A stretch of 64,000 nucleotides of DNA. Origin: Salminus brasiliensis (taxonomy: Eukaryota > Chordata > Actinopteri > Characiformes > Bryconidae). Position numbers and translations under genes: made by a program. Below the pieces are notes generated by a model. It searched no databases and was not told where the DNA came from. It saw only the letters and a list, made by a program, of their open reading frames with translations. Below, one piece after another: positions 3,171-62,378 of this stretch (position 1 is its first letter; each line of letters starts with the position of its first letter). The stretch is taken from NCBI RefSeq assembly GCF_030463535.1, contig NC_132880.1, forward strand, positions 39,251,842 to 39,315,841, read 5' to 3'.

Positions 3171-4869
3171 AGTGCCTTCTGGAGGCTCTGTTTTGACTGC
3201 TGTTTTTTGGGTGTTTTTATGGGTTTTTTTCTTTTTGGCCTTTTCTCTTTTTCCTCAACTCTCCGTCCACGTCTTTTTGCGGAAGAGGTGCTTTTGAGGG
3301 CAGGTGTTGTGGGGATTTGGCATTTAGGCTGTGTGAGGTACTCAGCCTTGGTGTTTCAAGTTGATGCTGCTTCAGCTGTTTCGGCTATAGTATAATCAAT
3401 ATTTAAAATTTTACCAAGAAAAGATGATCAAGTTAAACCTCAAACTGCATTAAACAGCATTTCCAAAGTTTTTGCACAGCAAACTACAAGGAAAGATTTA
3501 AAGATTGCTGCTTATAGACTTTACATTATTAAAAGTTTTCCCCATATAAGTTTTTTTCCCCATTTCCCATCATATTTGGGGTTTTAATTCCTTTTTAATA
3601 CACATTACATACACAGGTCACCCTTATTAACCCTTTAATGACAGCTTTTCAATAGTCTCGGCACAGCCTGAAGTTAACTCATCTGAGACAACAAAGGAGA
3701 GCTGGGGTGAGTGTTTGTGTGTTTGTCTTTGGGTCATTATTCTGTAATTGTGATTTTGTTCCCCCCCTTTTCTTTTTTATTGGGAGGAGGAAACGTGGCA
3801 ATAAGGCTTGAAGCCAATGTGGAGGAACTGATGTGTTAGGTGGGGGGTGATGCTGTTGCGCCAGACTGCCTGTGCCACGGCAGGTTGGTGGGTCTGGTAG
3901 GTCATGGCTGGATGGGCATTCAGAAAGGGCCCTTGTTTATGCTGGCTGCCAGGCACACAGGCCTTACTCTCTCACACACACACGTTTCCTGGGCCCTAGC
4001 CCCCTTTATACGCATTGTCACAGCACGTAACCCCCCTCTTTGCCCCCTCCCACTCCAACCCAGACCCCTTCCCCAGGCACAGCCAGATCCGCGCCGTTTG
4101 CAAATGTTTTCTGCTTGAGTGTGCACCCCATTGTTTCAGTGCTTTTAATCACTCACCAGCTGGTTGGGGAGTGAATGGAGCCGCGGGCCCGGATCCATGT
4201 CACTTGTGAGGTCTTGGAGGCAGGTTTCTGGAGGGTTAGCCTGCCACTGCTTGATGCCTCCAATTTGGAGCAATTCATGCAGCAACTTGTGCACAAACAC
4301 CTCTCTCTCTTTCTTTCCCTCCTTCTCTTCCGTCGGCCCCAGTTTTTTTTAGCTATCACTCAGGCAGCTCCCTGCAGCCTCAGTGGCCGTGGCTTTCTTC
4401 TGCTGTCGTTGTGTAAGTTTCACCAGAGGAAATGGCAGTTAAGCCATTCTCTCTCCCTCTCTCTCTCTCTCTTTCTCACTCTCTCCTTTTCTCTCCCGAG
4501 TCAGTGGCATTAGGGGCTGCTCTCTGGCTGGCCCGCAGACTGAACAAGTGATTGTGGGACAGCTGCAGGGAAGTGGAGGCCCAGCAGAACGGGGCCTTAA
4601 AGTAACATGTCTTTCCGGCTCCACATTCATGTCAGTTATCAACATCTGCCTCGCTCCAGATTTAAAGCGACATGCTCGTTTTTTCCCCCCCTCTCAATCC
4701 TGAAACCATCTCACGATTGTGAACTGATTGCCCAGAGAACTCCTTGAAATATCATATGTTCTAAGATGTCTCCTCGGTCATCCTATTTGCTTGGTTCCTT
4801 CAGGCTACTTTGAGATGTTTGGGCCTGACGTGTTAGGAATAGCCCATGTTTCTGTGTTTGTTTTCACAG
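3171..4869. other. cdk6 intron with CT microsatellite
   Basis: Intron up to the 4870 exon. It contains a CT-rich run at about 4447-4495 and GC-richer sequence at 3840-4240. No coding exon is supported. Confidence 0.5.
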
Positions 4870-33914
<29,045 letters not shown>

Positions 33915-40730: not shown

Positions 40731-40736
40731 TTTATT
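40731..40736 (-). terminator. Candidate poly(A) signal of the minus-strand gene
   Basis: AATAAA on the minus strand, 88 bp beyond the stop codon of the coiled-coil exon. Confidence 0.4.
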
Positions 40737-43700
40737 AAGAAACAGAGAAAAGAGAGCAGATAGAAAGAAAAGTAAATCTAAAAGTAAAGCAAACTATTTA
40801 TCAACACGTCCTTCTCCTCATCTTCAGCCTTCCAGTGTCATTCCTTTCAGTTTCTCTACCAAATCCTCCATCTCTCTGTCTTCTCTCTCTCTCTGCTGTC
40901 TCTCTCTCCTTCTCTGCCTCTCCACCTGGACCTGCTCCCTCTTCTGTTTCAGATATGCCCAAACATTCTCCAGCCTTTCTCCTCCTTCTGCTCTCAGCTT
41001 CTGACTTTCTTCCTTTACTCCTTCACTCTTCAGCTGTACTCCCAGTTTGCTCTCTACCACACTGCCCAGACCTGCGTCCAGCTTCTCCTCCAGCCTCACC
41101 TCCAGCTTGGCTTTCTCCTTTTCCAGCTCTTCCACCTTCCTGACCATTTCCCCTCTCTCTCTCCTCATCATTTTCATAGCCTTCTTATCCTTCTTTCTCC
41201 TTTTCTCCAGCTTCCTGAGCTCCTCCAGCAGCTCCTCTTTGTCCTTCTGTCTTTCCTTCTCCAGCTCCTCTTTCTCACTGTCAAACTCCTTCATCATCTG
41301 CTCCATCACCTCAGTTCTGATCTTCTCTCCTTCCTTCTTCATCTGCTCTATCTCCTTCTGTAACCCTTCTCCCTCCTTCCTCCACTCTTCCTGCAGCCTT
41401 TCTCTTGCCTCCCTCTCTTTCCTGACTTCCTCTTTCAGTTCCCTCAACCAAACCCTCTTAGATGTGACCTTACTGGCCACCGCGCCCTCCTGCATTTAGG
41501 AGAATTGGACAGAAGAAGAGGACGTTTGTAATTTTGTAATAAAACAGGATCAGTTCATGTACTATTCTTCTTCCAACATCATGACATACAGGAAAAGACT
41601 CCTGCCATCTTGCCCAAGGAAGCTTCGGCCGGACACCATTCAGCTCCTGTGACGAGTTCAGCGTTTTGCCAGATCCTAGATTAGATGTGACCTTACTGGC
41701 CACCGCGCCCTCCTGCATTTCGGAGAATTGGACAGAAGAAGAGGACGTTTGTAATTTTGTAATAAAACAGGATCAGTTCATGTACTACTCTTCTTCCAAC
41801 ATCATGACTTACAGGAAAAGACTCCTGCCATCTTGCCCAAGGAAGCTTCGGCCGGACACCATTCGGCTCCTGTGACGAGTTCAGCGTTTTGCCAGATCCT
41901 AGATTAGATGTGACCTTACTGGCCACCGTGCCCTCCTGCATTTAAGAGATGAGGACAGAAGAAGAAGACATTTGTAATTTTGTAATAAAACAGGATCAGT
42001 TCATGTACTATTCTTCTTTCACTCTCTGTCAAATCAAACATCATGACTTACAGGAAAAGACTCCTGCCATCTTGCCCAAGGAAGTTTTGGCCGGACACCA
42101 TTCAGCTCCTGTGACGAGTTCAGCGTTTTGCCAGATCCTAGATCAGATGTGACCTTACTGGCCACCGCGCCCTCCTGCATTTAGGAGAATTGGACAGAAG
42201 AAGAGGACGTTGGTAATTTTGTAATAAAACAGGATCAGTTCATGTACTATTCTTCTTCCAACATCATGACTTACAGGAAAAAACTCCTGCCATCTTGCCC
42301 AAGGAAGTTTCAGCCGGACACCATTCGGCTCCTGTGACGAGTTCAGCGTTTTGCCAGATCCTAGATTAGATGTGACGTTACTGGCCACCGTGCCCTCCTG
42401 CATTTAAGAGATGAGGACAGAAGAAGAAGACATTTGTAATTTTGTAATAAAACAGGATCAGTTCATGTACTATTCTTCTTTCACTCTCTGTCAAATCAAA
42501 TATCATGACTTACAGGAAAAGACTCCTGCCATCTTGCCCAAGGAAGCTTCAGCCGGACACCATTCGGCTCCTGTGACGAGTTCAGCGTTTTGCCAGATCC
42601 TAGATCAGATGTGACCTTACTGGCCACCGCGCCCTCCTGCATTTAGGAGAATTGGACAGAAGAAGAGGACGTTTGTAATTTTGTAATAAAACAGGATCAG
42701 TTCATGTACTATTCTTCTTCCAACATCATGACTTACAGGAAAAGACTCCTGCCATCTTGCCCAAGGAAGCTTCGGCCGGACACCATTCGGCTCCTGTGAC
42801 GAGTTCAGCGTTTTGCCAGATCCTAGATTAGATGTGACGTTACTGGCCACCGTGCCCTCCTGCATTTAAGAGATGAGGACAGAAGAAGAAGACATTTGTA
42901 ATTTTGTAATAAAACAGGATCAGTTCATGTACTATTCTTCTTTCACTCTCTGTCAAATCAAATATCATGACTTACAGGAAAAGACTCCTGCCATCTTGCC
43001 CAAGGAAGCTTCAGCCGGACACCATTCGGCTCCTGTGACCAGTTCAGCGTTTTGCCAGATCCTAGATCAGATGTGACCTTACTGGCCACCGCGCCCTCCT
43101 GCATTTAGGAGATGAGGACAGAAGAAGAGGACTTTTGTAATTTTGTAATAAAACAGGATCAGTTCATGTACTATTCTTCTTCCAACATCATGACTTACAG
43201 GAAAAAACTCCTGCCATCTTGCCCAAGGAAGTTTCGGCCGGACACCATTCGGCTCCTGTGACAAGTTCAGCATTTTGCCAGATCCTAGATTAGATGTGAC
43301 CTTACTGGCCACCGTGCCCTCCTGCATTTAAGAGATGAGGACAGAAGAAGAAGACATTTGTAATTTTGTAATAAAACAGGATCAGTTCATGTACTATTCT
43401 TCTTTCACTCTCTGTCAAATCAAACATCATGACTTACAGGAAAAAACTCCTGCCATCTTGCCCAAGGAAGTTTTGGTCGGACACCATTCGGCTCCTGTGA
43501 CGAGTTCAGCGTTTTGCCAGATCCTAGATCAGATGTGACCTTACTGGCCACCGCGCCCTCCTGCATTTAGGAGAATTGGACAGAAGAAGAGGACGTTTGT
43601 AATTTTGTAATAAAACAGGATCAGTTCATGTACTATTCTTCTTCCAACACCATGATGTAATTTTGTAATAAAACAGGATCAGTTCATGTACTATTCTTCT

Positions 43701-44165
43701 TTCACTCTCTGTCAAATCAAACATCATGACTTACAGGAAAAGACTCCTGCCATCTTGCCCAAGGAAGCTTCAGCCGGACACCATTCGGCTCCTGTGACGA
43801 GTTCAGCATTTTGCCAGATCCTAGATTCAGATATTCATGATTATTAAACAAGTTTAGGAGTTGATCTTTTCTAAAACAGGAACACGATGAAAGTGGATCT
43901 TCTTGTTGTCTTTAAGGCTGTATTCATTCTGAGGTCAGTCGTTTTGAAGTACTGAAACTTTATACTTTAAATAAACGGATTAAAGCTTTGAAAACTTACC
44001 TGAATCTCCTTTTATTCTGGTTTTGAGATCTGAGTGTTGTGAAGTGTGTCTGCTCAGTTGGTCCACAGTCCAAAGAACTGATCACTAAAGTTCCTAATGC
44101 AGGTTCTTTCTCACCTCACAATCGCATCATCACGTGACCTCATAATCGCACTGCTACAGCCCCGA
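40731..44165 (-). CDS. Unrecognised gene: nine tandem identical-length exons plus coiled-coil terminal exon
   Basis: Read on the minus strand. Terminal exon 40824-41489; internal exons, each 123 bp: 41590-41712, 41813-41935, 42052-42174, 42275-42397, 42514-42636, 42737-42859, 42976-43098, 43199-43321, 43438-43560. Upstream exon 43735-43870, possible leader exon 44000 to about 44165. Every internal exon has an acceptor (aaatgcag) after a pyrimidine tract and a donor after TCTTTTCCT (GTAAGT, once GTATGT). All are phase 0-0 and none has a stop in frame. The 41-residue unit begins EG(A/T)VAS(K/N)VTS and ends LPWARWQE(S/F)FP. From the first in-frame ATG (43809) the model predicts 25 + 9x41 + 221 = 615 residues. 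TATAAAA lies at 44199-44193 and AATAAA at 40736-40731. No family is recognised. Alternatively it is a satellite with fortuitous splice motifs. Confidence 0.5.
40824..41489 (-). CDS. Terminal exon: highly charged coiled-coil domain
   Basis: An open frame of 222 codons including stop. It begins with the tandem-unit leader EGAVASKVTS, then diverges into KRVWLRELKEEVRKEREARE and about 190 residues rich in E, K, R, L and M with heptad-like leucines (EELLEELRKLEKRRKKDKK; VRKVEELEKEKAKLEVRLEE), ending MTLEG. The shape resembles C-terminal coiled coils of fish immune GTPases and structural proteins, but no diagnostic domain is present. The strand is purine-rich, which also opens the opposite strand (150 codons), so openness alone is weak evidence. 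The in-frame acceptor and downstream AATAAA are the stronger points. Confidence 0.5.
   Translation of the reverse strand, partial: EGAVASKVTSKRVWLRELKEEVRKEREARERLQEEWRKEGEGLQKEIEQMKKEGEKIRTEVMEQMMKEFDSEKEELEKERQKDKEELLEELRKLEKRRKKDKKAMKMMRRERGEMVRKVEELEKEKAKLEVRLEEKLDAGLGSVVESKLGVQLKSEGVKEESQKLRAEGGERLENVWAYLKQKREQVQVERQRRRERQQREREDREMEDLVEKLKGMTLEG
41461..43829. repeat. Tandem array of 223/239-bp units in a 462-bp higher-order pattern
   Basis: Units start (at gatgtgac) at 41461, 41684, 41907, 42146, 42369, 42608, 42831, 43070, 43293 and 43532. Spacings are 223, 223, 239, 223, 239, 223, 239, 223, 239. The long form carries a 16-bp net insertion (tcactctctgtcaaatcaaa replacing a short segment). 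The last unit is a hybrid with an internal partial duplication at 43653-43720. Units are near-identical in exon-like and intron-like parts alike, implying recent amplification or gene conversion. Confidence 0.95.
43735..43870 (-). CDS. Candidate first coding exon of the tandem-exon gene
   Basis: The donor side is identical to the array units. The acceptor is tcctgttttag, outside the array. The first in-frame ATG is at 43809, giving MLNSSQEPNGVRLK then LPWARWQESFP. A tiny upstream ATG frame (MNI, then stop) lies at 43838-43827. In most array units the corresponding codon is ACG (Thr), so this ATG is nearly private to this exon (one internal unit also has it). Confidence 0.42.
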
Positions 44166-44199
44166 GAGTCACTGCAATATAAACTGGACACATTTTATA
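43958..44199 (-). promoter_or_regulatory. Candidate promoter and leader exon of the minus-strand gene
   Basis: TATAAAA at 44199-44193 could place a start near 44165. A transcript from there meets a good donor, GATTCAG|GTAAGT, at 44000. A second TATAAAG at 43964-43958 lies in the presumed intron and is an alternative promoter. Both are inferred from motifs. Confidence 0.35.
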
Positions 44200-44396
44200 T
44201 CCAACCATCATTAAACAAGTACAGTAAATTCAGACACTGTCCAAATTATCTCAAATAAAGTTTTTTTAATGCCAAACGAACGTGCTTTCAGCAACTATAT
44301 TATATTAAATGATCCAACTGCATCCTTACTGTGTGTTTATACCTATGAAACCTTTTTTTGTGTTAAAAATATTGTTTGCTAATTTAAGGTATGCTA

Positions 44397-45180
<784 letters not shown>

Positions 45181-58000: not shown

Positions 58001-61000
58001 TTCTGCACCATTAAGAAGTGCAGGAATGGGAAATTCCTGCGTTATAGGGATGCACTGTGTGTTGTGGGAAGACTAATTTGTTTTCCCAAAGAGCCCTTTT
58101 ACTAAATGGTTTTGGGAATGAGAGAAAGTTCCTGCACACATAGGTTAAGAGGTTATAGTTAAACCACAAGGTGAGCTTTTTAACACCTCTGAGAGTGTAA
58201 ATGCTTTTTAGGTCATTTGTAAGTGTACATTTGAATTACACACTCAGTAAATGTGCATTTAGGTCTTGTACCCCTACCTATGCAATTATCTAGTCAGCCA
58301 ATCAATATAACACATAAAATCATGAGCCAGCTGCTTTACACATTGTTCACATCCACCATCAGAATAGGAAAAAATGTGGTTTTGAGTGTGGCATGACTGT
58401 TGATGCCCGACAGGCTGGTTTGAGCATCTCTATTCCTGCTAATCTCCTGGGATTTTCAGCACAGCAGTCTCTAGAGTTTATCAGAATGGTGGAATGAAGA
58501 AAATGCATCCTCTTGAGCAGCAGTTCTGCAGAATTAAAAACACCCTGTTAATGTGAGATGTAAAGGGAGATTGATCTGACTAGTTTGGGCTGACCGAAAG
58601 GCCACAGTAACTCAGAAAACCACTCTACAATCCGTGGTGAGCAGAAAAGCACCTCAAAAAGCACAACACATCCGACCTTAGATAGATGGTAGATGGTAGA
58701 TGGGCTACGACAGCAGAAGACAGAAAGCTGAGGCTTAGGCTCACCAAAACGGGACAGTTGAAGAATAGAAAAACATCAAGGTCTGCGTTGATGAATCTGA
58801 ATTCCTGCTGAGGCTCACAGATGGTAGGATCAGAACTTGGCGCCAGCAGCTTGAATCCATAAACCCAACTTGTCTTGTATCAACAGTCCAGGCTGGTGGA
58901 GGTGGTGTGATGGTGTGGGAAAGGTTTTCCTGGCACACTTTGGGTTGTTGATGCCAGTTAATCATTACTTGAATGCCACAGCCTATTTGAGTATTGTTGC
59001 TGACCATGTTCATCCCTTTATGACCACAGTTTACCCATCTTCTAATGGCTACTTCCAGCATGATAATGCACCATGTCACTAAGCAAAGCCGCCTCAAACT
59101 GGTTTTATGAACAGGAAAGTGTTCAGAGTTCTTTAGGGGCTGAATCTGAATCAGTCATGGGATTTCAGTCTAAAAGAACAGCTTTGGGCTGTTTGTTCAC
59201 AGCATGTTCAAGTGTTCCTAAAACAAATGTGGAATGCAGGTATGTCACCATTGAGCAGAATATCCAAAAAATGGCGGAAGGATTAAAGCTGAGAGCAAAG
59301 GGAAGCCTATCCCGTATTAGCCTAGTGGTCCTAATAAAGTGCTTGGTGATTGTGTATTGTATATTCTACTGTATTATATTATGTAGAGATACTTTTTCTA
59401 TTTTTAATAATTGAAAAAAGTAAAACAACATATATATTTTAATAATTGTATGATACATTTACAAAATGTCATTATTAATGTGAAATTTTGTCTTAAGAAG
59501 AATTCACAAAATTCACTAAGATGACTGGTAGTCATTATCGTTAAATCTTGGTCTTTTGGATCTCTGTGCTCAGTAAAGATATAAACACTCTCATTTTGAT
59601 AAATGGTTTAAAAAATTGATTGATTGTCAAATAATACTTTTAATAATTCTGATGATGAATGAGTGTTTTAGAATAATCATGTCTACTGTGTGTGCCTTTA
59701 GTGCGTCTTTCCACTCCTGTCGTGGTGAAGAACTCAGAGGACACACTCGTGGAAGATCGGGACAATGTCACTCTGACCTGCATTGTGGAGAAAAGAGCAA
59801 GGGCTAAGTACCAGTGGCTGAAAAACAACAAACCTGTCGAACTGAGTGAACGTCACATGTTCTCCCAAACAAACAACTCTCTGCTCATCAGCCCAGTGAA
59901 GAAGGAGGACATTGGCATGTACAGCTGTGTGGCTGAAAACTCCATCAGCCTCGCAAGGAGCCTAGCCATGGAACTCAGTGTGTTCTGTGAGTGTTCAGCT
60001 TTCTGCTCTTTATTCACCGCCATGCAGTCCGCAAACTTCCACTACCTTTATTTCTCTTGGATATCCTCATTTCACCTCTCACATCCTTAATGGCCTTTTT
60101 GCATGTGGTGTCTTTTCTCTTGTTGCCTGAGGATGTTTACAGCAGCCTGATCTCCATGGAAGTGAATGATCTTTCTGCTTAAACTGTTTAATATTCAAAT
60201 ACTCTATGCTCTATACTCAAACACACTAGGTGTTCAAATGTTTGTGGACACCGCTTCAAAAGAATGCAACTTTAAGTTGCACTCGCTGATATAGATGTGC
60301 AAATGCCTGCGCACACACACAGCTTGTCTAGCTATTCTCAAACTCAACCCCTACAAGACGGAGCTGCTGTACATCCCGGGAACTGCTGGACCAAGAAACG
60401 ATCTTGCCATCACCTTTGAGAACTCACTGGTCACTCCTTCTACTGAAGCCCGAAGCCTTGGTGTAGTGATGGATGATCAGTTATCGTTCTCAAGTCATGT
60501 TGCAAACGTAACTCGGTCCTGCAGATTCCTCCTGTACAACATCCGGAGAATTCGACCCTTCCTCTCTAGAGAGGCCACTCAGGTCCTTGTTCAGTCTCTC
60601 GTCACTTCCAGACTTGACTACTGCAACTCTCTTCTGGCTGGTCTCCCTCTGCGCACCATCAGGCCCCTGCAACTCATCCAGAATGCAGCGGCACGGGTCG
60701 TCTTCAATGTCCCAAAATTTAGCCATGTCACTCCACTGCTGCGTTCTCTCCACTGGCTTCCTGTAGCTGCCCGCATCAGATTTAAAACACTGACGCTGGC
60801 CTACAAAGCCAAGAACGGACCAGCCCCTCCGTATCTGATGGCAATGGTCAAAAGCCGATCCGCACCAAGAGCCCTTCGAGCTTCAAGTACGGCTCGGCTT
60901 GACCCGCCATCCCTCAAAATCCGCGGAAGACAAGCGTCCAGGCTTTTTTCTGTCCTGGCACCAAAGTGGTGGAACGAGCTGCCCCTGGGTGTCCGAACGG

Positions 61001-62378
61001 CCGAGTCGTTCGCTGTCTTCAAACGCAGACTGAAGACCCACCTCTTCAGAGAGTACTTGGACGAATAGTTCTATGGTCGCCTTATTGTATTGTGTTTAGC
61101 AATGTCTAAGCTTAGAGGTATCTTTTGAATTATTAGCCTATTCTAACTAGCTAAGGTTTTCTTGGGTAAATAGCAAAGCACTTTGTAAGTCGCTCTGGAT
61201 AAGAGCGTCTGCTAAATGCCGTAAATGTAAATGTAGCTACTTGTCTAGTCGAGAATTATTGCCAATAGAATAAGACATTCTGGAGCAAATAGGCATGAAC
61301 CTGTTGGCACCATGTCTAAAGCCAGGCTGGGCTAGAGGGGTATACAGTCCTGTAATGATGGTGCTTCATCCAGTATGTTTGGGATGACCTGGGGTGGGAT
61401 GATGTAACATCCTGACCTCACGAACTCTCTTGCTGCTGAATGCAATCAAATTCTTACAGCAATGCTCTAGAATCTAGTAGAAAACCATTGGTACCCCTTG
61501 GATACCTTTGATTTTGGGAGAAACAACAAATGAGCAGATGTCCCAAAACTTTTGTCCATTTAGTGTGCATGAGATTGTTTTCAAAGGCATTACATGTTTC
61601 AGGTGAATTGTCATACTTCAGACCACAAAACTCTTAAATACTTTGTTTGTACACTAATCAGCCATAAGATTAAAACCACCTACTGAATATTGTGTAGGTC
61701 CTGCTCGGGCCACCAAAACAGCTCTGATCCATTGAGGCGTGGACTCCACAAGACCTCTGAGTGTGTCCTGTGGCTCTCTCTTTAAGTCCTGGTGGGTGGG
61801 GCCTCCATGGACTGCATCAATGAACCTTGGACACCCATGACCCTCATACTACTTCACTAATTGTTGTTCATTGGTAGATGCCAATCACTGCATAACAGCC
61901 ACACTCCATGAGACCTGCCTCTTTGGAGATGTTCCGACCCAGTCGTCCAGTCATCATAATCTGGCGCTTGTCCAAGTCGCTCAGATCCTTATGCTTGCCC
62001 TTGTGAAGTATTGTGGTTTAATGTAAAGGAACATGAACATGAATTCAAAAACTCAGTGACTGTTTATTTTCTCCTCAGATGGCCCTTATAATCTGGAAGT
62101 GAACTCAGACCAGGGTTTGAGAATTGGAGAAGTGTTCACTGTAAACCAAGGAGAGCTGATCTTTTTTGAATGCTTGGCCGACTCCAACCCCCCCAACACC
62201 TGTGTGTGGATCTCCAGGACGGGCAACAATACAGAAGTCCTTATGACAGGCCCTCGCTTTGAGGTGCCTTCACACAAGTTGGCTCAACCCACCAAGTTCT
62301 TGTGCCGGGCCTTCAACAATATGACGCAGAAGCAGGATGAAACTCACTTCACGCTGGTGGTGGCCAATCTCGGCAAAG
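52005..62378 (+). CDS. hepacam2: HEPACAM family member 2, first four coding exons (partial gene)
   Basis: Exons 52005-52083, 56935-57300, 59702-59986 and 62079-62378, all joined by phase-1 introns typical of Ig-domain genes. They encode a signal peptide (AAFLSVCQVYSLLLLSC), an N-terminal V-like Ig domain without the usual cysteines, a C2-type domain (NVTLTCIVE ... KEDIGMYSCVAEN) and a third domain (YGPYNLEVNSDQGLRIGEVF; ECLADSNPPNTCVWISR; FLCRAFNN; QDETHFTLVV). The YGPY.L.VNSD..L..GEVFTV and ADS.PPNT motifs match HEPACAM2 as I remember it. N-glycosylation sequons include NKT, NVT, NNS, NNT and NMT. HEPACAM2 is a single-pass Ig-superfamily protein linked to Golgi/centrosome behaviour in mitosis. 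The transmembrane and cytoplasmic exons lie beyond the right edge. Confidence 0.92.
52084..54267. other. hepacam2 intron 1, first part
   Basis: Contains TG runs (about 52997-53017 and 53411-53431). No other exon or RNA gene supported. Confidence 0.5.
54268..54626. mobile_element. Nonautonomous element with GGGCCGGC termini
   Basis: The left end cagtctgggccggcccaagc and the right end gtgggccggctctggg form imperfect inverted repeats. Inside are agccctaagcaga and gcactaagcagcc, motifs of a dispersed fish repeat. The class is uncertain. Confidence 0.55.
54627..55020 (+). pseudogene. Ancient Tc1-like transposase N-terminal relic
   Basis: Plus-strand frames read HSVKEVAKFAGAVQSYRST, then AISERTLCRELHSMNIWGS and SHKVPLLQTL, resembling the two helix-turn-helix motifs of Tc1 transposases (SERT.RRELH.MG). 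Stops and shifts are present. Confidence 0.5.
55021..55930. other. hepacam2 intron 1, middle
   Basis: 55080-55500 may continue the decayed transposase region, but I could not confirm a domain. The rest is unremarkable. Confidence 0.4.
55931..56243. mobile_element. Tc1-type MITE with 'CATAATATTCTGA' termini
   Basis: tcagaatattatgaccacacct at the left mirrors aggtggtcataatattctga at the right. Internal remnants such as gcagtccgtgccacgacgt show it derives from a longer element. Confidence 0.75.
56295..56519 (-). mobile_element. tRNA-derived SINE with L2-like tail, copy 2
   Basis: Closely similar to 15601-15829 over its whole length. The minus strand has a slightly decayed B box (ggtttgattcc) and the tail agtcgctctggataagagcg with atgtaaatgta. 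Confidence 0.82.
56697..56880. mobile_element. Foldback MITE, copy 5
   Basis: gcactcttaaaaatgagatg and cccatagaagatccac at the left face ggttcctttgtggcattcct and aaggaaccctttgtggcac at the right. Same general family as copy 1, decayed. It ends about 55 bp before the hepacam2 exon at 56935. Confidence 0.5.
56935..57300 (+). CDS. hepacam2: hepacam2 exon: N-terminal V-like Ig domain
   Basis: Acceptor ttttaaag, donor gtgagt, 366 bp. Encodes ANMELVTMPPVLHGIMGESL through EAAEGDYRLEINFFGANKTT to VSIIVN. It has no cysteines, as in the first domain of human HEPACAM2. Confidence 0.9.
57301..57685. other. hepacam2 intron 2, start
   Basis: No recognised feature apart from an AT-rich TAA run at about 57656-57686. 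Confidence 0.5.
57686..57835 (-). repeat. Inverted 150-bp copy of part of the 58240 Tc1 element
   Basis: The reverse complement of this segment equals 59056-59205 with a single mismatch and no gap. It derives from the transposase region around the second catalytic residue. Loop length is 1220 bp. Confidence 0.95.
58240..59365 (+). mobile_element. Decayed Tc1/mariner transposon, copy 2
   Basis: Same family as 1045-2100. The 5' part is ctatgcaattatctagtcag; transposase pieces include QAGGGGVMVWE-like sequence at about 58890 and SSNGYFQHDNAPCH at about 59040; the 3' part is ctagtggtcctaataaagtg. Stops, frameshifts and deletions have killed the gene. It lies in hepacam2 intron 2 in sense orientation. 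Confidence 0.85.
59702..59986 (+). CDS. hepacam2: hepacam2 exon: C2-type Ig domain
   Basis: 285 bp between acceptor tgcctttag and donor gtgagt. Disulphide cysteines are in NVTLTCIVE and GMYSCVAEN, with the core Trp in YQWLKNNKPVE and the D-x-G-x-Y-x-C motif in KEDIGMYSC. Confidence 0.94.
60223..61566 (+). mobile_element. Nonautonomous Tc1-like element split by an L2 insertion
   Basis: The left inverted repeat acactaggtgttcaaatg ... gtttgtggacacc starts at 60223, and the right one, tgtcccaaaacttttgtcc ... tttagtgt, ends at 61566. The pieces flanking the LINE (60223-60331 and 61240-61566) match the deletion derivative at 47615-48043. Confidence 0.78.
60332..61239 (+). mobile_element. 5'-truncated L2-clade LINE with intact C-terminal RT frame
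   Basis: An uninterrupted frame to the stop at 61066-61068 encodes the end of a reverse transcriptase: LGVVMDDQLSFSSHVANVT, SRLDYCNSLLAGLP, IQNAAARVVFNVPKFSHVTP, LHWLPVAARIRFKTLTLAYK, then FKRRLKTHLFREYLDE. This is the standard fish L2/CR1-type C-terminus. The 3' tail is aagtcgctctggataagagc plus (GTAAAT)n. The 9-bp target-site duplication cttgtctag flanks it at 60323-60331 and 61240-61248. The endonuclease and most of the RT are missing. Confidence 0.92.
61651..62001 (-). mobile_element. Internally deleted Tc1-like element
   Basis: The terminus acactaatcagccataagat is followed by ccaccaaaacagctctgatc, tggactccacaagacctctg and, after a deletion, gagatgttccgacccagtcg with tccaagtcgctcagatcctt. 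On the minus strand these are the two ends of a Tc1 transposase gene. It ends at about 62001, 78 bp before the hepacam2 exon, without a second inverted repeat. Confidence 0.75.
62079..62378 (+). CDS. hepacam2: hepacam2 exon: third Ig-like domain
   Basis: 300 bp between acceptor tctcctcag and donor gtacaa. Carries YGPYNLEVNSDQGL, FFECLADSNPPNTCVWISR and KFLCRAFNNMTQKQDETHF, ending in phase 1 for a downstream membrane exon not in the window. Confidence 0.94.

Follow-up and report, generated by a model that had tools for sequence, protein, structure and literature searches.

Introduction

Repeated in-frame exons lengthen the protein in nebulin and similar genes, where they encode old structural repeats, and in LPA, whose kringle IV-2 (KIV-2) repeat multiplies a folded kringle domain in large repeat units and varies between people. 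This intragenic repeat makes up as much as 70% of the coding sequence, according to an excerpt of a report on LPA (PMC11201333). In zebrafish, extracts from two reports describe NLR-B30.2/NLR-C genes in which several N-terminal peptides of about 30 residues, each encoded by one exon, precede a large exon, and in which the number of these N-terminal repeats can differ between genes (PMC4852459, PMC11192531). Here we analyze a locus in a 64,000-nucleotide (nt) stretch of the Salminus brasiliensis genome (contig NC_132880.1, here C3, positions 39251842-39315841; hereafter the window), where nine tandem 123-base-pair (bp) segments on the minus strand, read as putative exons, lead into a long exon for a charged helix. 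From the DNA sequence we describe the anatomy of this locus, the chimeric origin of its repeat, the family to which it belongs and the coding nature of its helical exon. We consider it probable that the locus is a real, undescribed gene of a small family, with an N-terminal peptide that was multiplied by duplication of a chimeric exon; our best reading is that this taxon-restricted gene makes a helical rod bearing a short peptide at its N-terminus.

Like LPA KIV-2, the locus carries a tandem repeat inside one coding frame, with near-identical exons and introns running head to tail in the same phase; unlike KIV-2, the fish unit measures 223 or 239 bp, codes for 41 residues for which hardly any fold is predicted, and is chimeric in origin. 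Its likeness to the zebrafish NLR genes, as the extracts portray them, lies in the layout of repeated N-terminal peptide exons before a large exon. In contrast to NLR-B30.2, neither NACHT nor FISNA nor any other Pfam domain reaches cut-off in the predicted fish protein, and the downstream exon encodes a charged helix. Nebulin likewise has in-frame repeated exons; unlike in nebulin, the array here is young. By the tests made, the gene appears to belong to neither the LPA KIV-2 nor the zebrafish NLR kind, and literature searches on tandem or chimeric exons found no closer parallel than the systems compared here.

Anatomy of the window copy

Nine segments of exactly 123 bp lie on the minus strand from 43560 down to 41590, all in phase 0 and in one open frame, as an earlier sequence-only reading of this DNA had claimed with coordinates exact to the base. 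Directly 5' of every unit stands AAATGCAG, the donor is GTAAGT in eight units and GTATGT in unit 9, and AG/GT is kept at all ten acceptors and ten donors of the array, with nine of nine units in frame. The eight introns between units alternate between 116 and 100 bp, and a further intron of 100 bp separates unit 9 from the helical exon; the sequence-only reading had described the introns as 100 or 116 bp, which holds between units and before the helical exon but misses a 174-bp intron ahead of the array. From the ATG at 43809, the predicted spliced frame runs for 1,848 nt (615 residues plus stop), in agreement with the earlier figure of about 615, and a short form in which exon 2 is joined directly to the helical exon would have 246 residues. 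The array would supply 369 of the 615 residues (60%) and is predicted to be strongly basic, with an isoelectric point of 9.9. An outside leader donor and acceptor, a TATA box and an AATAAA had also been proposed and are found at 43999 and 43820, at 44199 (TATAAA) and at 40736. The 5' end of exon 1, a putative transcription start, is assumed to lie about 30 bp below the TATA-like box. The features are listed below, with slashes marking splice junctions.

44000..44170, minus strand: exon 1 (5' untranslated region), 3' end set by donor GATTCAG/GTAAGT at 43999
43735..43820, minus strand: exon 2, 86 bp; acceptor 43820, start codon 43809, encodes MLNSSQEPNGVRLKLPWARWQESFP
43561..43734, minus strand: intron before the array, 174 bp; 116-type 5' part fused to 100-type 3' part
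43438..43560, minus strand: putative unit exon 1, 123 bp, phase 0
43199..43321, minus strand: putative unit exon 2, 123 bp; codon 17 still ATG (ACG in the other eight units)
42976..43098, minus strand: putative unit exon 3, 123 bp
42737..42859, minus strand: putative unit exon 4, 123 bp
42514..42636, minus strand: putative unit exon 5, 123 bp; exon-2 part one difference from exon 2 proper
42275..42397, minus strand: putative unit exon 6, 123 bp
42052..42174, minus strand: putative unit exon 7, 123 bp
41813..41935, minus strand: putative unit exon 8, 123 bp
41590..41712, minus strand: putative unit exon 9, 123 bp; first 32 nt match the helical-exon head at every position (32/32), donor GTATGT
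41458..41489, minus strand: helical-exon head, EGAVASKVTS plus 2 nt; every unit takes its first 32 nt from here
40824..41489, minus strand: terminal helical (coiled-coil-like) exon, 221 codons plus stop; acceptor 41489, TGA at 40826-40824
40731..40736, minus strand: AATAAA, candidate polyadenylation signal

Paralogues in the same genome

The genome searched comprised 1.07 Gb in 103 contigs. Relatives of the helical exon occur at four other open loci, C12:32115195 (plus strand), C12:32081198 (minus strand), C3:33442949 (plus strand) and C3:33451181 (plus strand), and these copies are labelled C12a, C12b, C3a and C3b. Nine of the 13 rows returned by this search represent the five genes; L018-L021 (E values 0.95-5.7) were compared by blastn only, which gave nothing apart from one 22-nt match of L019. 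The size of the family is a lower bound of at least five open copies and one decayed copy. The window helical exon matches C12a with an E value of 2.1e-19, its identity to the two aligned members is 51% (C12a) and 41% (C3a), and phmmer assigns the window gene 129 bits to C12a and 63 bits to C3a.

In all four paralogues the short exon 2 is single-copy and precedes the helical exon at a distance of 213 or 223 bp; its phase-0 donor, GTAAGTCATG, is common to them and the window copy. Every paralogue has one or more further candidate donors 876-2970 bp upstream, with resemblance to exon 2 only at 213/223 bp. The exon-2 peptide reads MKPSEELNGLQLPLPWTRRVDALP in C12a, with two residues fewer in C12b, and MMKLSLELNGVQPLAPWTSRVDTLS in C3a and C3b as against the peptide of the window copy listed above. 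The earlier proposal of a gene is supported by four further copies that have the same two coding exons and agree in splice sites and phase, and as judged from these alignments the copies form a small gene family with one short N-terminal coding exon and one long helical exon.

Similarity to C12a reaches into exon 1 (44154-44070; 77.6% over 85 bp), where the donor is conserved and reads GTTCAG/GTGAGT in C12a; a blastn comparison with C3a gave no match for the exon-1 part. Compared with C12a, the C12b copy has a frameshift near residue 195. A relative on C6 (L036, G000:C6:9754672-9755001), detected at an E value of 0.005 with C12a as query, has decayed, with stops in every forward frame of the stretch shown, and so shows the effect of drift. 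We rejected a transposon origin of the gene, since the homology between the window and C12a extends beyond the end of the C12a/C12b block and there is thus no fixed common end.

Several smaller features of these copies were also noted. The presumed exon 1 holds a 10-codon upstream frame with its ATG at 44143 (minus strand) and a TCACGTGA box at 44137-44130 (minus strand), a box that the C12a copy lacks. Exons near the C12 copies (L022 3-215 and L027 6041-6445), recognised by eye, presumably belong to a SERCA-type calcium ATPase, and the C12a copy may be located inside this gene or directly downstream of it.

Origin of the 123-bp unit

On sequence comparison, the 123-bp unit is a chimera of the helical-exon head and the body of exon 2. 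Its positions 1-32 differ from the head at 0-2 sites in all nine units (none in unit 9), which substantiates the earlier remark that the first ten helical-exon residues repeat the unit leader, and its last 86 nt differ from exon 2 at 1-6 sites. The two homologies meet at a short common ATCT, and the former exon-2 acceptor TCTAG/GATCTGG is preserved inside unit 9 and, as read, in the other units. The old start codon survives as ATG in one of the nine units and appears as ACG in eight. Because the aligned paralogues carry the head (their ELSVGRKRLSK and ENTVIRKRFSK align with EGAVASKVTSK), the head in the helical exon is the ancestral one. The sequence-only reading had recognised no family for the repeat; no Pfam family reaches cut-off, but the unit is built from two parts of its own gene and is not a novel domain.

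The 116-bp intron type has a TTTGACAGA-AGTGAAAGA stretch in common with the C12a intron, which suggests that the 100-bp type arose from it by deletion. Units two apart differ at 3.7 positions on average and neighbours at 5.1, and Tandem Repeats Finder reports a 462-bp unit in 4.5 copies at 97%; both point to an array that grew as a dimer. When the genome was searched with the 123-bp unit, with the best candidates only being scored, all 11 matches listed fell inside the window.

These observations are consistent with the following course of events. The ancestral gene would have had a non-coding exon 1, an exon 2 that carried the start codon and encoded about 25 residues, and a long exon for a charged helical rod. 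A tandem duplication that began at the 5' border of exon 2 and broke off 32 nt into the helical exon would have joined the helical-exon head in frame to the exon-2 body, making a new 123-bp exon with the acceptor of the helical exon, the donor of exon 2, a length divisible by three and phase 0 at either end. The new exon would then have multiplied as a 462-bp two-unit repeat. Because the units are a multiple of three and in phase 0 on both sides, any number of them could be spliced without a change of frame. The predicted protein would be a helical rod with one ancestral and nine duplicated copies of the N-terminal peptide, and a likely effect would be multivalency, with peptide arms per rod going from one to about ten and avidity rising with copy number.

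Coding signal and predicted structure of the helical exon

The helical exon is purine-rich, with G+A making up 527 of its 663 bases, and composition must therefore be taken into account when long open frames in it are judged. Its coding frame contains no stops, whereas the two remaining frames on the minus strand contain 19 and 7, and none of 5,000 dinucleotide shuffles of the helical-exon body left the frame open. The codon-position chi-squared value is 99 against a maximum of 25 among 1,000 shuffles. By these sequence statistics, the helical exon is coding.

The ratio of non-synonymous to synonymous substitution rates (dN/dS) in the helical exon, taken from protein-guided alignments that bias towards low values, is 0.29 against C12a over 219 codons (dS about 1.2), 0.17 against C12b (136 codons ahead of the frameshift) and 0.41-0.42 against the C3 copies (206 codons). 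Synonymous changes make up 28/77 of the lineage-specific changes in the window copy, 27/74 in C12a and 39/130 in C3, where 0.28 is expected. In 2,000 runs of a neutral simulation, the helical frame stayed free of stops in 6-8% at 0.1 substitutions per site, in 0.1-0.2% at 0.3 per site and in at most 0.1% at 0.6 per site. The preserved frame is telling because neutral runs of 0.3 substitutions per site and above seldom stay open and dS to C12a is about 1.2, and we regard it as a stronger argument for coding than the substitution tests.

An AlphaFold2 model of the helical exon as a single sequence and single chain gives helices at residues 5-152 and 156-218, with a mean predicted local distance difference test score of 86. 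Hydrophobic periodicity, tested at six periods, stands out at 3.6 (p = 0.0015); at 3.5 it gives p = 0.066, and the power at this period is equalled by another reading frame (29.1 vs 27.9). The coiled coil named by the sequence-only reading is partly supported, a long helix being predicted. A coiled coil is likely, with a charged single helix, a class of E/K/R-rich single alpha-helical structures, as a possible alternative. The C12a copy contains a 78-nt direct duplication inside its helical exon (L022 6457-6612, 77% alike), through which the rod too has become longer.

Database searches

Neither predicted form has an annotated relative at E <= 10 in the protein database, whether searched as the 615-residue form (7,999 candidates scored, reach about 338-1076 residues) or as the 246-residue short form (5,879 candidates, reach about 135-430 residues). 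As a control query, a long interspersed nuclear element (LINE) frame of the window gave 5,747 matches among 6,849 candidates; the 120 matches listed were led by Prochilodus, with Astyanax and Serrasalmus in the first seven, so the database does contain characiform fish proteins. The window gene has two 5-residue words in common with C12a and five with C3a, and with so few common words the protein searches rule out close annotated orthologues and leave room for distant ones.

No Pfam family reached its curated cut-off with the 615-residue protein (best, Frey, E value 0.0038), and a Protein Data Bank (PDB) search returned no chains at an E value of 0.1. A second PDB search gave 31 weak matches, mostly coiled-coil chains, of which the best was NDUA8 (E value 0.0085). 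A viral relative was considered and rejected, as eight pattern stretches in viral contigs were all unrelated. By simple pattern, the interval 43.5-46 kb contains no interferon-stimulated response element (ISRE) or gamma-activated site (GAS) motif.

Weighing the interpretations

Translation of the array is plausible on the basis of its sequence, because phase 0 and splice signals are found at nine of nine units. We infer the splicing and translation of the unit exons, and a series of observations speaks against a translated array in a gene under constraint. The 123-bp unit taken alone has no codon signal (chi-squared 6.6, p = 0.35), and the openness that the nine units have in common counts about once because the copies are near-identical. 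A comparison of substitutions across units, proposed by the sequence-only reading, gave no sign of purifying selection: non-synonymous changes account for eight of the 11 variable columns and synonymous changes for the other three, where a non-synonymous fraction of 0.62-0.66 is expected without selection. Units are about as variable as introns (11/123 vs 11/98 common columns), and the four 116-bp inter-unit introns are 0.6% apart as against 2.8-3.3% for the units. Because the array is young, the test of constraint among units is weak in both directions. The unit also has almost no predicted fold, with a six-residue helix over WARWQE (a weak prediction from a single sequence), so a linear motif fits better than a domain.

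The remaining adverse points concern the rest of the gene. A frame-blind count of differences by codon position, made in two of five C12a blocks (three overlapped) and two of three C3a blocks (one was off frame), gives 26/31/39 and 11/13/18, in the same direction and not significant (p = 0.28 and 0.40). The synonymous excess is borderline on the window lineage (p = 0.07; C12a 0.07, C3 0.34), the recent C3 pair differs by seven non-synonymous changes and one synonymous change, and exon 2 compared with its paralogues has a dN/dS of 0.83-0.98 over 22-25 codons.

These points bear most directly on an alternative that we hold to be unlikely but worth keeping in view, namely that the array is carried along neutrally, as an intron-bounded duplicate that recently expanded in the manner of a minisatellite and whose units are mostly skipped, with the 246-residue short form as the working protein, as in the paralogues. 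The lack of constraint among units, their intron-like variability, the lack of a codon signal in the unit and the four other copies, which manage without an array, would all follow from this. Yet ten acceptors and ten donors are intact and all nine units are in frame, although 11 neutral changes would by our estimate stay free of stops some 60-70% of the time (stop fractions 0.028-0.047), and the splice signals are so nearly identical that nothing visible would explain why units should be skipped systematically.

We think it improbable that the window copy is a non-functional relic of a living family, with a helical frame still open because the loss is recent. The family does lose members, as the frameshifted C12 copy and the decayed C6 copy illustrate, and a broken element that looks Tc1-like to the eye stops roughly 0.2 kb upstream of the TATA-like box; nevertheless, the helical exon is open, the start codon, splice sites, TATA-like box and poly(A) signal are present, and the synonymous fraction on the window lineage resembles that on the C12a lineage. 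Least credible of all is an assembly artefact in which the true array is longer or shorter and its regularity comes partly from repeat assembly, for although a near-identical 462-bp repeat is hard to assemble and one assembly only is available, the units have distinct private changes (the S/L/W and T/M columns), the 52-Mb contig suggests long reads, and an error in copy number would leave the explanation unchanged.

Genomic neighbourhood

The gene lies in an interval that holds CDK6 on the plus strand, where frames at 4843 and 33708 have CDK6 as their best PDB matches. Coding pieces at 48.6-51.1 kb appear FAM133-like by eye, and we take them to be such. Between 56.9 and 62.5 kb, three open frames give matches to immunoglobulin models, in one of the three cases above the curated cut-off, and presumably belong to HEPACAM2. 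Other features of the window are broken pieces of a Tc1-like transposase, recognised by eye at 44620-45179 (minus strand) and ending about 0.2 kb above the TATA-like box; a minisatellite at 27014-27563 with a 21/42-bp unit in about 26 copies; an open 192-codon frame over this minisatellite (27049-27627, minus strand) with repeated MNYSVSA/T-like residues; and, in the HEPACAM2-like region, an open 257-codon frame of LINE reverse-transcriptase type (60295-61065, plus strand), which among the matches listed is closest to characiform fish proteins.

The same neighbourhood surrounds the fish short-form granulin (GrnC) locus, where HEPACAM2, CDK6 and FAM133 are among the flanking genes and exon loss reshapes the gene, according to an extract of PMC4527844. 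Unlike GrnC, the window did not yield the twelve-cysteine granulin module in a six-frame motif scan, which gave two matches, both to the loose xCCP pattern and none to the paired-cysteine patterns, and a granulin was rejected. In mammals, according to an extract of PMC3685527, CDK6 and HEPACAM2 flank SAMD9/SAMD9L, and that paper reports SAMD9/SAMD9L to be absent from fish; a SAMD9 relative by position was set aside on that report.

Implications

Under the preferred reading of a real gene with a multiplied N-terminal peptide, the rod would oligomerise, the peptide would bind a partner and, to judge from how nearly identical the units are, the number of copies would vary. A more specific proposal, which we advance tentatively, is that a breakpoint inside a coding exon created a self-propagating cassette that is now a length-polymorphic module setting peptide valency on the rod. 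Such a cassette would combine the acceptor of one exon with the donor of another, be phase-symmetric and have an internal start codon mostly changed to ACG; that the number of arms differs between individuals or tissues is likewise possible, if rather doubtful.

The family, not found in the libraries searched here, has its arrayed copy in the CDK6-FAM133-HEPACAM2 interval of this fish, and the unarrayed sister copies in the same genome provide the 'before' picture of an exon birth. The locus thereby illustrates how one tandem duplication broken inside an exon could make a symmetric exon that is free to multiply, steps that are usually inferred after their traces have vanished. Should the array prove to be translated and to vary between individuals, it would offer a natural dose series for peptide valency.

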